DNA of 57,883 nt from a virus, in the IMG/VR virus record IMGVR_UViG_3300035661_000073, positions 1 through 57,883 of that record. One strand, 5' to 3'. This document shows positions 15,099 through 18,503 of the stretch, one piece after another. Each line of letters opens with the position of its first letter. The first letter of the stretch is position 1. The notes under the pieces were generated by a model that was given only the letters and a program-made list of their open reading frames with translations, had not been told where the DNA came from and did no database searches. The position numbers and the translations under genes are program-made.

Positions 15099-15122
15099 GT
15101 GTACTTTTTAGTCATCGGTCAA
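15099..15122 (-). promoter_or_regulatory. TGACTAA-type intergenic element before the portal gene
   Basis: Read leftward: TTGACCGATGACTAAAAAGT followed by ACAC. Twenty-two of 24 positions match the element upstream of the large terminase (17755-17778). It is AT-rich in GC-rich surroundings and lies about 50 bases before the portal start. A late promoter or a regulator-binding site is the likely role. Confidence 0.5.
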
Positions 15123-15153
15123 ATTTTTCTTCTGATCAAATAGGTTTACCCAA

Positions 15154-17712
15154 CTAGTCGGAATTGCGCCCGGCCCGGTACGGCACCCAGGGGTGTTCCT
15201 CCACCGGTTCCTGCCATTCCGTTTCCTGCCAGGGCGGCACGGCGTCCAGGCGGTGGGCGTAGTCGGCCAGGCCCATGGTCAGGTAGCGCAGGCTGGTGAT
15301 CACGTCGTAGCGCCGGATCGGGGTCTCACGCATGGGCCCGTCGCCGTCCTTGTTCCACTCGTAGCCGCTGTACTGGTCGTGCAGGGTTTTCAGGTTCTGG
15401 CTGATCAGCAGGCGCTGGGTCTGGAACCGGTGCCACATGGTGTCCATCCCGGTCGGGAAGGAGTTGTTGGCCTTGATGAATTTGCGCTTCTCCTCCTCGA
15501 TCTCGTCCCAGTTCGGGCCGTGGGCCAGGTCCCAGTACTTCTCCAGGATCTTGGTGCCGTCCGCCTGGGACGCCTGGTCCGAGGCCGGATCGATCATGAA
15601 CGACATCGATGGGCCCCACTTCTGGAGGTTCCGGTAGTGGTATTCATAGTCCTTCTCCGCCTGCTCGTACGAGGCGTAGACGTAGACCACGTCGGAGAGG
15701 GGATCCCAGGCGGCGGCGGTGGCGGCGGTCGGGTGGCGCCAGCCCACGTCCAGCCCACCCAGGTAGCGCCAGTGGGGACTGATGGCGATCTTGCGCGGGT
15801 CGTAGAGCACCGAGTCCAGCGGGAACGGGAAGATCAGGCCGGAGTTGCTGGTCTCCCGGCCCTCGGAACGGGCCGCCAGCATGGCCGGGTCGGACGCCCA
15901 CAGGGCCCGGTTCCGCGCCTTCACCTCTGGGTCCAGGTGCTTGGCGTCGTCGTAGCTCAGGTAGACGCGCAGGACATGGGGGCCGCCGGCATTGTCGCGG
16001 ATCCACTTCACCAGCGGGGTGATGCCGTGCTGCGGGCACAGGGCGTAGTAGATGAAGCCATTGTTGACCGAGATGCGGGCGATCAGCTCGTCCATGATCT
16101 CCTTCGGGCACTCCTCATCCACCCACACCCGGTCGCCAGTCCAGGAGGCCAGGGCCTGTTGGTCCATGCCGTGGGTCTTGAACGAGATGACGCTGGTGGT
16201 GTCGGACGGGACGTGCTTGACCCAGACAGTGTCGATGGCGCCGGCCACCGACTTCATGGACGGTTTGCCCATGATGTACTTGTGGTGGATCAGGGCCTCG
16301 CGCCCCGGCTTGTCGGTCCACCCCGGGCGGTTCTTGTCGGGCCCGAACAGTTTGCGCTGGGGGGCGTCACGCACGTTCTCGGTCGTGTCACCGACCACCC
16401 AGGCGTTGATGCCCCGCGAGGTTTTCGGGCCCTTGTACCAGTCCGGGTAGAGCCCGGTGGCGTCCCACGCCAGTTGCACAGCGGCGGCATGGCTCTTGCC
16501 CGAGTTGTGATTGAGCACCGTCCCAATGAAGTAGTTGTGGGTCCCCTCCACTTCAAAGTCCCACACCTGCCCCTTGCGGAGCCAATCAATGCGCCTTACG
16601 CTTTGGTTTGGAGCGTAATATGCCGAACAAGCACAAAGGTCGTCAATCTCGAGACTGGCCCGTGGACCAGATTCGCCGTTGGGTGGAGGTTGAAGGGTGG
16701 AATCTGCACCAGATTTCTCGAGAGATGGGGGTGCCCCTGTCCACCATGCAGAAGGTTCTGGTCCGGAATGGGATTCTCTTGAAGGGCAAGGGACGGCCCC
16801 CCCGAGACTGGCCAGTCGATCAGATCCGGCTGTGGGTGGAAGTTGATGGCTGGACGATGGATCAGGTTGCTCGAAAACTTGGCACCCACCACCAGACGGT
16901 GTCAAAGGTTTGTGCAAAACATGGGATTCGGACCCAACGGACAGGTCCTCGAGCAGGGGAAGGGCACCCGAAATGGGAAGGCGGCCGGATCCTGGACAAG
17001 CACGGCTACGTGCTGGTCTACCGGTTGAACCATCCGATGGCACGGAAGCGTGGGAAGATGCCCCCCATCTACGTCCCTGAGCATCGACTGGTGATGTCCG
17101 AGCACCTTGGGCGGATGCTTGATCCTCTCGAGGTTGTCCATCACAAGAACGGGGAGAAGCAGGATAATCGGCTCGAGAACCTCGAGCTTTACACATCCAA
17201 TGCTCTCCACCTTGAGGACGAACTGACGGGTCGCTGCCCAAAGTGGAGCGAAGCCGGGAAACAGGCGATCCGTCTTGGAGTAAAGCGGAGGTGGGCTGCC
17301 ACCCGGAAGGGGTCAGGATCCGGTGACCCCTCGAGCAAATGATCTGGGTTCCGTCATCGAAGGTAACCCGGTAGAGGTCCTCGAGGCATTTCTTGAACGG
17401 CCGATGAGCCCTCGAGATCACCACCTCATGGCCGTCCCATGACTCCACGAAGAAGTCACCGTCGATCTCGTCAACCCGCCTCGAACACTTGGCCACCGGG
17501 TCCCAGATCTCCTGCTCACCACCTACACATTGGTTCGCTCCGAAAATTCCCTTGATATGCTTGAAGGAATTGAAAAATTCCAACTGCGGTTCGTAGATCC
17601 CGTTCGGAAAGGCCATGTCGGTCAGGAAGGCCATCTCGGCTTCCTGCTGGATGCCGGCCTCCGCCAGTCGTAATCCGGTGACCAGCCCTTCCAAGCCGTC
17701 GTGTCTTGCCAT
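15154..17712 (-). CDS. terL: Terminase large subunit, interrupted by an intein in Walker A
   Basis: The precursor has 852 residues; removing the 342-residue intein leaves 510, a normal TerL length. The N-extein (1-61) ends FGANQ and the C-extein starts SGKSHAAAV at residue 404, so the intein splits the Walker A motif GANQ/SGKS between Q and S. The Walker B motif is VWVDEECP (about residue 530). The nuclease domain begins near GGLDVGWRHP (about 650) and includes RRYDVITSLR (about 800). TerL translocates DNA into the procapsid and cuts it. Splicing is therefore needed for any ATPase activity. ATG at 17712 has AGGGGTG upstream. The precursor frame stays open through the antisense endonuclease gene. 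Confidence 0.92.
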   Translation of the reverse strand: MARHDGLEGLVTGLRLAEAGIQQEAEMAFLTDMAFPNGIYEPQLEFFNSFKHIKGIFGANQCVGGEQEIWDPVAKCSRRVDEIDGDFFVESWDGHEVVISRAHRPFKKCLEDLYRVTFDDGTQIICSRGHRILTPSGWQPTSALLQDGSPVSRLRSTLGSDPSVRPQGGEHWMCKARGSRADYPASPRSCDGQPREDQASAQGARTSPVDAQGRRWGASSHASVPSDGSTGRPARSRACPGSGRLPISGALPLLEDLSVGSESHVLHKPLTPSGGGCQVFEQPDPSSSHQLPPTAGSDRLASLGGAVPCPSRESHSGPEPSAWWTGAPPSLEKSGADSTLQPPPNGESGPRASLEIDDLCACSAYYAPNQSVRRIDWLRKGQVWDFEVEGTHNYFIGTVLNHNSGKSHAAAVQLAWDATGLYPDWYKGPKTSRGINAWVVGDTTENVRDAPQRKLFGPDKNRPGWTDKPGREALIHHKYIMGKPSMKSVAGAIDTVWVKHVPSDTTSVISFKTHGMDQQALASWTGDRVWVDEECPKEIMDELIARISVNNGFIYYALCPQHGITPLVKWIRDNAGGPHVLRVYLSYDDAKHLDPEVKARNRALWASDPAMLAARSEGRETSNSGLIFPFPLDSVLYDPRKIAISPHWRYLGGLDVGWRHPTAATAAAWDPLSDVVYVYASYEQAEKDYEYHYRNLQKWGPSMSFMIDPASDQASQADGTKILEKYWDLAHGPNWDEIEEEKRKFIKANNSFPTGMDTMWHRFQTQRLLISQNLKTLHDQYSGYEWNKDGDGPMRETPIRRYDVITSLRYLTMGLADYAHRLDAVPPWQETEWQEPVEEHPWVPYRAGRNSD
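16504..17529 (-). mobile_element. Intein in TerL with an antisense endonuclease insert
   Basis: This stretch encodes 342 residues. Block A begins with the nucleophile Cys1 (CVGGEQEIWDPVAKC). Block B is GTQIICSRGHRILTPSGW (residues 60-77), with an S-x-x-H in place of T-x-x-H. Block F is QVWDFEVEGTHNYFIG and block G is TVLNHN, followed by Ser+1. The splicing blocks sum to about 135 residues, as in mini-inteins. The roughly 205 residues between them are low-complexity and have no endonuclease motif, because that DNA instead encodes an HNH protein on the other strand. All class 1 splicing residues appear present, so splicing is likely. Confidence 0.9.
16620..17342 (+). CDS. HNH homing endonuclease encoded antisense within the TerL intein
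   Basis: A 240-residue protein starting at ATG 16620, with GGAG seven bases upstream. Residues 11-50 and 61-102 are two copies of the same helix-turn-helix unit (RDWPVDQIR-WVEV-GW then a recognition-type helix). Residues 117-196 form an HNH nuclease: EHRLVMSEHLGR, then EVVHHKNGEKQDNRLENLEL with His174, His175, Asn177 and Asn187. Both HTH units are N-terminal, whereas many phage HNH proteins carry them C-terminally. Its last codons (GSGDPSSK) are antisense to intein block B. It presumably cuts intein-less terL alleles and so mobilises the intein. Expression needs a rightward promoter in an otherwise leftward region; none is obvious. Confidence 0.85.
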   Translation: MPNKHKGRQSRDWPVDQIRRWVEVEGWNLHQISREMGVPLSTMQKVLVRNGILLKGKGRPPRDWPVDQIRLWVEVDGWTMDQVARKLGTHHQTVSKVCAKHGIRTQRTGPRAGEGHPKWEGGRILDKHGYVLVYRLNHPMARKRGKMPPIYVPEHRLVMSEHLGRMLDPLEVVHHKNGEKQDNRLENLELYTSNALHLEDELTGRCPKWSEAGKQAIRLGVKRRWAATRKGSGSGDPSSK

Positions 17713-17754
17713 GAAAACACCCCTGGGTTTGGGGGCATCCCCCGTCCCAAGGGT

Positions 17755-17778
17755 GTCTACTTTTTAGTCATCCGTCAA
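17755..17778 (-). promoter_or_regulatory. TGACTAA-type intergenic element before terL
   Basis: Read leftward: TTGACGGATGACTAAAAAGT followed by AGAC. It is nearly identical to the element before the portal gene and lies between the Hint gene and terL. A promoter or regulator site for terL is inferred. Confidence 0.5.
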
Positions 17779-17791
17779 TTTTTTGAGCCGA

Positions 17792-18223
17792 TCACCCTTC
17801 ACTTATTGCGATGTTGTCGCAAATAAAGGCGTGGTCGGGGTGGTCGATGGTGATGCCCCAGATGGGCTCCTCCATGATCTCGCCCATGTATTCCAGCAGG
17901 GCGAAGGCCGGAGCCCCCCTGGGAGTGCGGACCACCACCGGGCGCTGGTCCTGGGCCGCCCGGCGGGCCCGGATGAATTCCTGCTTGCCGTTCTCGCACA
18001 GGACACAGACCTTGTGGGCCAGGGTGCATTCCAGGATGCCGAAGTCGTGGCGGAACCGGTGGACCATGCGGATGCCGGCGTCGAAGGAGGTCAGCACATG
18101 GGCGGTGCGGAAGTCGTGATCGCGGAAGTCGTAGGCCAGCACCGGGTCGCCGGGATGCAGGTGGGGGATGGCGGTGCTTTCCCCGGACGGGTGCAGCACC
18201 TGGGCATCGCCGCGCAGACTCAT
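17792..18223 (-). CDS. Stand-alone Hint-domain (intein-like) protein
   Basis: A 143-residue protein made up wholly of a Hint-like fold. Residues 2-10 (SLRGDAQVL) match block A of inteins (CLxGDTxVL) with Ser in place of Cys1, directly after Met1. HPGDPVLAYD follows. Block B is GILECTLAHKV with the T-x-x-H motif. The C-terminal part IWGITIDHPDHAFICDN matches block F. It ends IAISEG rather than with HN plus a nucleophile, so the C-terminal cleavage residues are missing. It lies just upstream of the intein-bearing terL. It could be an intein remnant, a domesticated autoprocessing domain, or a partner of the TerL intein. Confidence 0.7.
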   Translation of the reverse strand: MSLRGDAQVLHPSGESTAIPHLHPGDPVLAYDFRDHDFRTAHVLTSFDAGIRMVHRFRHDFGILECTLAHKVCVLCENGKQEFIRARRAAQDQRPVVVRTPRGAPAFALLEYMGEIMEEPIWGITIDHPDHAFICDNIAISEG

Positions 18224-18477
18224 TCCTCGTCCTCGCTCATGGGCCGGTCGTTGTCCTTCCAGCAGGCCACCAGTTGTTCCTCGGAGTCACAGGCCATCAG
18301 GCGGTACATCCCCAGGGTTTCCATCGGGGTGGCATCGTCGGTACGTTTCTGCACCACATTCATGGTTCCTTCCTGGGTCATGGTCAGGATCAGCACCTGC
18401 CGGAACCGGTCCACGTTGGCGGCCAGGTCCATGGCATGGTTGATGATTTCCCCGCGTTGTTCGTCGGTCCACTTCAT
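18220..18477 (-). CDS. Small acidic protein, unknown
   Basis: An 85-residue helical protein (MKWTDEQRGEIINHAMDLAAN...) ending in an acidic tail (MSEDEE). Its stop overlaps the Hint gene start by four bases. GGAGCG precedes the ATG. No family was recognised. Confidence 0.65.
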   Translation of the reverse strand: MKWTDEQRGEIINHAMDLAANVDRFRQVLILTMTQEGTMNVVQKRTDDATPMETLGMYRLMACDSEEQLVACWKDNDRPMSEDEE

Positions 18478-18503
18478 GGTCGCTCCAGTGAAGGTTCAGT
18501 CTC

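Follow-up and report, generated by a model that had tools for sequence, protein, structure and literature searches.

A terminase intein with a putative homing endonuclease encoded on the opposite strand of its DNA

The window analysed here is the whole of the IMG/VR virus record IMGVR_UViG_3300035661_000073 (57,883 nucleotides; guanine-plus-cytosine (GC) content 65%), in which terL, the gene for the large terminase subunit, is interrupted by an intein. We propose, with a probability of roughly 0.88, that the insert, located in the Walker A motif of TerL, is a mobile intein and that its homing endonuclease is produced as an independent protein from the opposite strand of the intein DNA. In known inteins the endonuclease is either a domain in frame with the intein or encoded outside a split gene. 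In the arrangement proposed here, a protein-splicing domain and its mobility enzyme would be encoded by the same base pairs, read from opposite strands in the register that constrains them most.

The terL gene of the window is a single minus-strand frame (17712..15154) of 852 codons with no stop, within which the intein occupies 342 residues (17529..16504, minus strand), the Cys1 codon being at 17529 and that of the terminal Asn at 16504. The insertion site lies in Walker A at GANQ/SGKS, i.e., directly before SGKS, and the initial annotation had located the element at exactly these positions. The N-terminal extein (17530..17712, minus strand), which was aligned with relatives, ends with ...GIFGANQ, the first half of Walker A, while the C-terminal extein (15154..16503, minus strand) starts with SGKS, matches Terminase_6N and is 57-69% identical to IMG/VR relatives. 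The N-terminal splicing domain (residues 1-90; 17260..17529, minus strand) contains Cys1, an SxxH block B and block N4, and the C-terminal splicing domain (16504..16599, minus strand) has the sequence WDFEVEGTHNYFIGTVLNHN. The nucleophile at position 1 (C1), the terminal H341-N342 and the Ser at position +1 are those of an intein. In the AlphaFold2 model the predicted local distance difference test score (pLDDT) is mostly 94-98 for residues 1-80 and 93-98 in the C-terminal part, and residues 1-90 together with 311-342 match the RecA and DnaB mini-inteins in PDB (root-mean-square deviation about 1.6), which corresponds to the Hint fold.

The middle of the intein (residues 91-310; 16600..17259, minus strand) appears to be an antisense filler, domain-free and merely open. 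The sole Pfam match in the whole intein is Intein_splicing, and no endonuclease domain is found by Pfam in the minus-strand middle, which departs from canonical endonuclease-containing inteins and agrees with what had been noted from the letters alone. The model is disordered there, with pLDDT below 50 across nearly all of residues 91-305. On the minus strand, GC by codon position in the middle (0.66/0.67/0.43) is the mirror of that in the plus-strand gene described below (0.66/0.44/0.67); it is unlike that of the phage genes, where GC at third codon positions (GC3) is about 0.9, and hence not coding-like on this strand.

The plus-strand gene (16620..17342, ATG at 16620) lies antisense within the intein and encodes a putative homing endonuclease of 240 residues with two helix-turn-helix (HTH) units followed by an HNH domain; a GGAG Shine-Dalgarno (SD)-like site (16610..16613, plus strand) stands 6 nucleotides before the ATG. 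Pfam recognises HNH_3 (E 1.6e-10) and HTH_23 in this protein, and the HNH_3 motif EHRLVM...VVHHKNG...N..NL..SNALHL is encoded at 17094..17213 (plus strand). The presence of both an HNH catalytic motif and a DNA-binding domain is what would be expected of an HNH homing endonuclease. The AlphaFold2 model (mean pLDDT 81, about 95 in the HNH core) consists of two helical HTH units and a beta-beta-alpha HNH core, its closest fold in PDB being I-HmuI (probability 0.99, with a weak E of 0.057). The initial annotation's 240-residue HNH protein with its own ribosome site, and its two simultaneously open frames, are thus borne out. It had also placed block B antisense to the last HNH codons, and this holds for most of the block, the exception being GTQ, its first three residues, encoded past the HNH stop (intein codon 63). 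Because the window HNH gene ends at block B, it shares only a short stretch (17260..17342, both strands) with the folded splicing domain, in which the HNH C-terminus is paired with block B and N4.

Relatives of the element turned out to be numerous. Querying by tblastn with the window HNH protein identified Pectobacterium phage Ymer, together with related phages, and Pseudoalteromonas phage PHS3, in which the HNH match sits antisense inside terL. A single-sequence search of viral contigs with the window HNH protein gave no match, nor did an earlier HNH alignment when compared with genome contigs; in both cases better alignments later succeeded. The alignment searches, in which the opposite strand was ignored during selection, returned 80 + 80 loci in viral contigs and 2 in bacterial genomes, 162 in total, and because some contigs were shared between scans we counted distinct HNH sequences, of which there are at least 125. 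In 162 of 162 loci the intein frame, always in the phase seen in the window, is uninterrupted. The enclosing proteins have Cys1, the block B His, the terminal HN and Ser, Thr or Cys at +1. Residues C1, H69, H341 and N342 are invariant in 31 inteins that are only 14-25% identical to the window intein, with Thr usual in block B, and H175, N183, N187 and H197 are invariant in 25 endonucleases. An SD-like AGGAG or GGAGG precedes 63 of 126 HNH starts (the best over candidate starts) against 2 of 371 control ATGs. Hosts of the element comprise TerL proteins from two Pfam families (Terminase_6 and Terminase_3) as well as two helicases (SNF2 and AAA_30). Antisense-HNH inteins are a stable and widespread class with its own diversity. 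The window HNH clusters with a clade of TerL elements (L106-L127, support 97), and the nearest intein in sequence is that of locus L126, in an AAA_30 helicase (33% identity, long branch).

Several side observations concern the hosts and insertion sites. The hosts other than terminases are P-loop proteins, an AAA_30/UvrD-like helicase at L126 and an SNF2-like helicase at L150; the host at L152 (GMGKT) is helicase-like by eye but not by Pfam. In TerL of L120 and L127, the intein follows GK (GANRVGK/TS) rather than preceding SGK, which is another position in the P-loop. One TerL C-extein of the aligned set has a Pfam Hint_2 match, suggesting a second intein in one terL. In an uncultured 484-kb phage (LR756508.1), a related HNH (at 300884) and a related intein splicing domain (at 146450) stand apart.

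The two reading frames are in a phase in which the wobble base of each strand is the second codon base of the other. Of 81 elements measured, 51 have their HNH stop exactly 14 codons within the intein, and nearly all others have it 2-17 codons within, so that in most relatives the C-terminal HNH domain is antisense to the N-terminal splicing domain; short-overlap forms are the window, L119, L131 and L137. The dual constraint on folded domains was accordingly measured on the relatives, not on the window. Divergence at four-fold sites of the HNH gene is 0.57 opposite the filler and 0.27 opposite the splicing domain; the intein values are 0.26 within the overlap and 0.63 and 0.53 in the parts beyond it, and the TerL extein stands at 0.60. 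Synonymous change is thus restrained on each strand within the overlap, relative to the level of about 0.5-0.6 seen where one strand alone is under constraint. All 27 disjoint pairs show the drop within the overlap (p = 5.6e-6), the codon constraint on both strands among homologues that the initial annotation had proposed to look for. Protein identity of the filler is 0.40 where that of HNH is 0.69. In a recent pair, the Enterobacter cloacae and Escherichia coli prophages compared below, third positions of the HNH gene differ at 42 of 223 codons opposite the filler and at 0 of 82 opposite the splicing domain.

Mobility is suggested by comparison of the element with its flanks. The prophages of E. 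cloacae DSM 26481 and E. coli MEI003 share 92.2% DNA identity over the intein but 71.2% over the terL sequence that follows it, with the shift falling at the intein edges; in other pairs, HNH sequences 55-70% identical reside within TerL whose exteins are only 20-35% identical. An empty allele, GFG/SGKT, is present in E. coli ET729. A search with the intein C-block gave 80 loci, comprising 73 with HNH, 4 cut by contig ends and 3 mini-inteins (L239, L248 and L257). The latter are 135-152 residues long with the HNH mostly deleted; the antisense remnant is recognisable and the intein frame open, while in 2 of the 3 the frame of the HNH remnant contains stops. Loci L206, L232, L238, L241, L255 and L259, considered as further HNH-less forms, were rejected since their HNH is intact with variants of the motif. 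Decay of HNH while the intein persists, which the initial annotation had named as a sign against its proposal, thus does occur, and in our view it does not refute the proposal but is how a homing cycle is expected to end. To judge from these sequences, the element moves independently of its flanks, and the pattern is the cycle of gain, spread and decay expected of a homing element.

Long antisense open reading frames (ORFs) are common in GC-rich genomes (the portal gene of the window phage has a chance antisense ORF of 744 residues), so the open intein frame or the HNH ORF might be meaningless. Shuffling of synonymous codons within the window HNH gene predicts 6.15 stops in the intein frame, where the actual gene has 0 (P = 5e-5); in the two remaining antisense frames, observed and expected counts agree (2 vs 2.0 and 8 vs 6.8). 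With phage codon usage as the model, only 2.9 stops are expected in the intein frame (P = 0.034), which speaks for chance and against our reading. Stop avoidance in the window by itself is suggestive, significant but modest; the relatives decide the question. In the 125 distinct HNH sequences, spanning GC 0.39-0.66, the intein frame has 0 stops against 721.6 expected under synonymous shuffling, whereas the control frame has 1081 against 1029.6. In addition, the catalytic blocks of the intein flank the filler on both sides in the same frame, the HNH fold is intact and its catalytic residues are conserved. Chance overlap is hence extremely improbable; it is already refuted by the homologues, and a recent clonal expansion is excluded by identities of 28-50%.

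Two further explanations accept both proteins or both frames and differ in their meaning. Packaging in phages can require an HNH protein, as with HK97 gp74, encoded near the terminase genes, and the HNH gene of the window sits inside terL; it might, therefore, encode a packaging cofactor of the terminase that is antisense by happenstance and not a homing enzyme. We consider this unlikely, because neither intein nor HNH is present in the close relatives L008 and E. coli ET729, some relatives kept the intein and lost HNH, some members reside in helicase genes, and the unit moves independently of its flanks. Removal could also take place at the RNA level, the insert being an intron with an antisense endonuclease gene and the intein-like frame a vestige. 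Antisense homing endonuclease genes are indeed known in nuclear group I introns (PMC9548176), but an Rfam scan of 15100..18500 gave no match, including to group I or II intron RNA structures, the open frame, the C1...HN/S residues and the Hint fold are kept throughout, and the four-fold constraint fits a translated splicing domain; we regard this explanation as having hardly any probability.

Besides the modest stop statistics of the window, several points weigh against the proposal of a mobile intein with an antisense endonuclease. The Intein_splicing match of the window intein (E 8e-6) is under the curated cut-off of Pfam, and its block B reads SRGH, with Ser in place of the usual Thr, although His69 is present. 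No close relative with the same intein was found, the best HNH being 44-49% and the best intein 33% identical. Scans for promoters scored at background level or close to it, with no convincing promoter for the antisense transcript and no site positioned to drive the window HNH gene. Finally, for every member of the class, splicing and the cleavage of empty sites are processes that we infer.

The proposed mechanism may be outlined as follows. The minus strand would give a TerL precursor. Its splicing half-domains, one at either end of the insert, would come together in one fold, with a disordered loop between them that corresponds to the endonuclease gene read in antisense; judging by fold and residues, the half-domains would splice out and restore GANQSGKS. 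A presumed antisense transcript, of which the start codon and SD-like site are seen, would give the HTH-HTH-HNH protein, and this protein would cut intein-less P-loop genes, with repair copying the whole element in, as horizontal transfer and empty alleles suggest. Selection would keep both frames open, the intein frame since TerL needs it and the HNH frame only for as long as homing continues. The C-terminal HNH domain reads through the N-terminal splicing domain in most relatives, both proteins constraining the same bases. A more tentative suggestion, for which we see somewhat less than an even chance, is that antisense-HNH inteins form a distinct ancient class, in which endonuclease and splicing domain co-evolved as a two-strand gene pair; perhaps the overlap locks them together, and opposing transcription may separate endonuclease synthesis in time from late terL synthesis.

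The nearest known systems share parts of this arrangement. Fractured genes, with split inteins and free-standing endonucleases, were reportedly described by Dassa et al. in 2009; there, too, the endonuclease gene is separate from the splicing halves, but the host is split into two ORFs and spliced in trans, whereas terL of the window is one ORF of 852 codons. The initial annotation had drawn the same distinction, and its central claim, an unsplit TerL intein with a homing endonuclease encoded separately on the other strand, is supported in the window and every relative examined, although its notion of an “intermediate” state does not fit a stable and widespread class, in most members of which the endonuclease also overlaps the essential N-terminal splicing domain. 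The class 1 inteins TerL1-a/b of mycobacteriophages (Kelley et al. 2016, PMC5050341) are also mobile, endonuclease-bearing protein-splicing elements in the Walker A P-loop of TerL, with Cys1 and terminal HN; their endonuclease is described as the intein’s own domain, in contrast to the separate opposite-strand protein and filler middle of the window. In cyanophage CL131, the dCTP deaminase gene likewise combines a Hint domain with an HNH_3 endonuclease, and self-excision was shown (PMC6293099), but HNH is in frame within that intein and antisense in ours. The ShiLan insertion (2025, PMC11855218) is a mobile HNH gene that overlaps an open, stop-free host frame in a phage gene; it is out of frame on the same strand, with no splicing domain found and no SD, while in the window HNH is on the opposite strand of a true intein and has an SD-like site. 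The Didymium L2066 nuclear group I intron (PMC9548176) resembles the window in having its endonuclease gene opposite the host-gene strand inside a self-splicing element, but it is an RNA intron in rDNA, where no host reading frame has to stay open, as it must here. An antisense endonuclease in an intein was not found in the literature searched, older and subscription papers being outside the search, so a prior description is possible.

Annotation pipelines tend to call the interrupted terL truncated or a pseudogene. For E. coli MEI003 (L188, 3027-5314), the Prokaryotic Genome Annotation Pipeline (PGAP) gives terL as “incomplete, missing N-terminus” with an adjoining opposite-strand “HNH endonuclease”, and in the phage PHS3 record (L025) the TerL start is placed inside the C-terminal part of the intein. 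Since HNH is called and terL is then labelled truncated or a pseudogene, such inteins and the intact terminases are missed. More than 100 diverse natural examples, together with empty sites and decayed copies, make a rare replicated system for studying sense/antisense selection, and the same set allows a homing cycle to be watched.

The neighbourhood of the window terL contains another Hint element. In related phages, terL has either a different mini-intein lacking a homing endonuclease gene or no intein (L008). This mini-intein stands at GANQ/SGKS in L002/L012, L003, L007 and L009-L011, and at GANQSGK/SH, three residues later, in L004-L006, so that one mini-intein family has two insertion points in one motif. 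As an ancestor of the window intein, the mini-intein of the close relatives (L002 and others) was rejected (E 0.17). Upstream of terL, a free-standing Hint protein of 143 residues (17792..18223, minus strand) is 35-49% identical to these mini-inteins and is bounded like an intein, with Met followed by position 1 and the end at position N. Its gene has an ATGA overlap with the stop codon of the upstream gene and is coding-like (GC3 0.87). Because Cys1 is replaced by Ser and the last Asn by Glu, the protein is probably not splicing, and it resembles an intein that has become a gene of its own. Between this gene and terL, at 17713..17791 (minus strand), an imperfect inverted repeat, ACACCCTTGGG...CCCAGGGGTGT, lies directly before the terL start codon.
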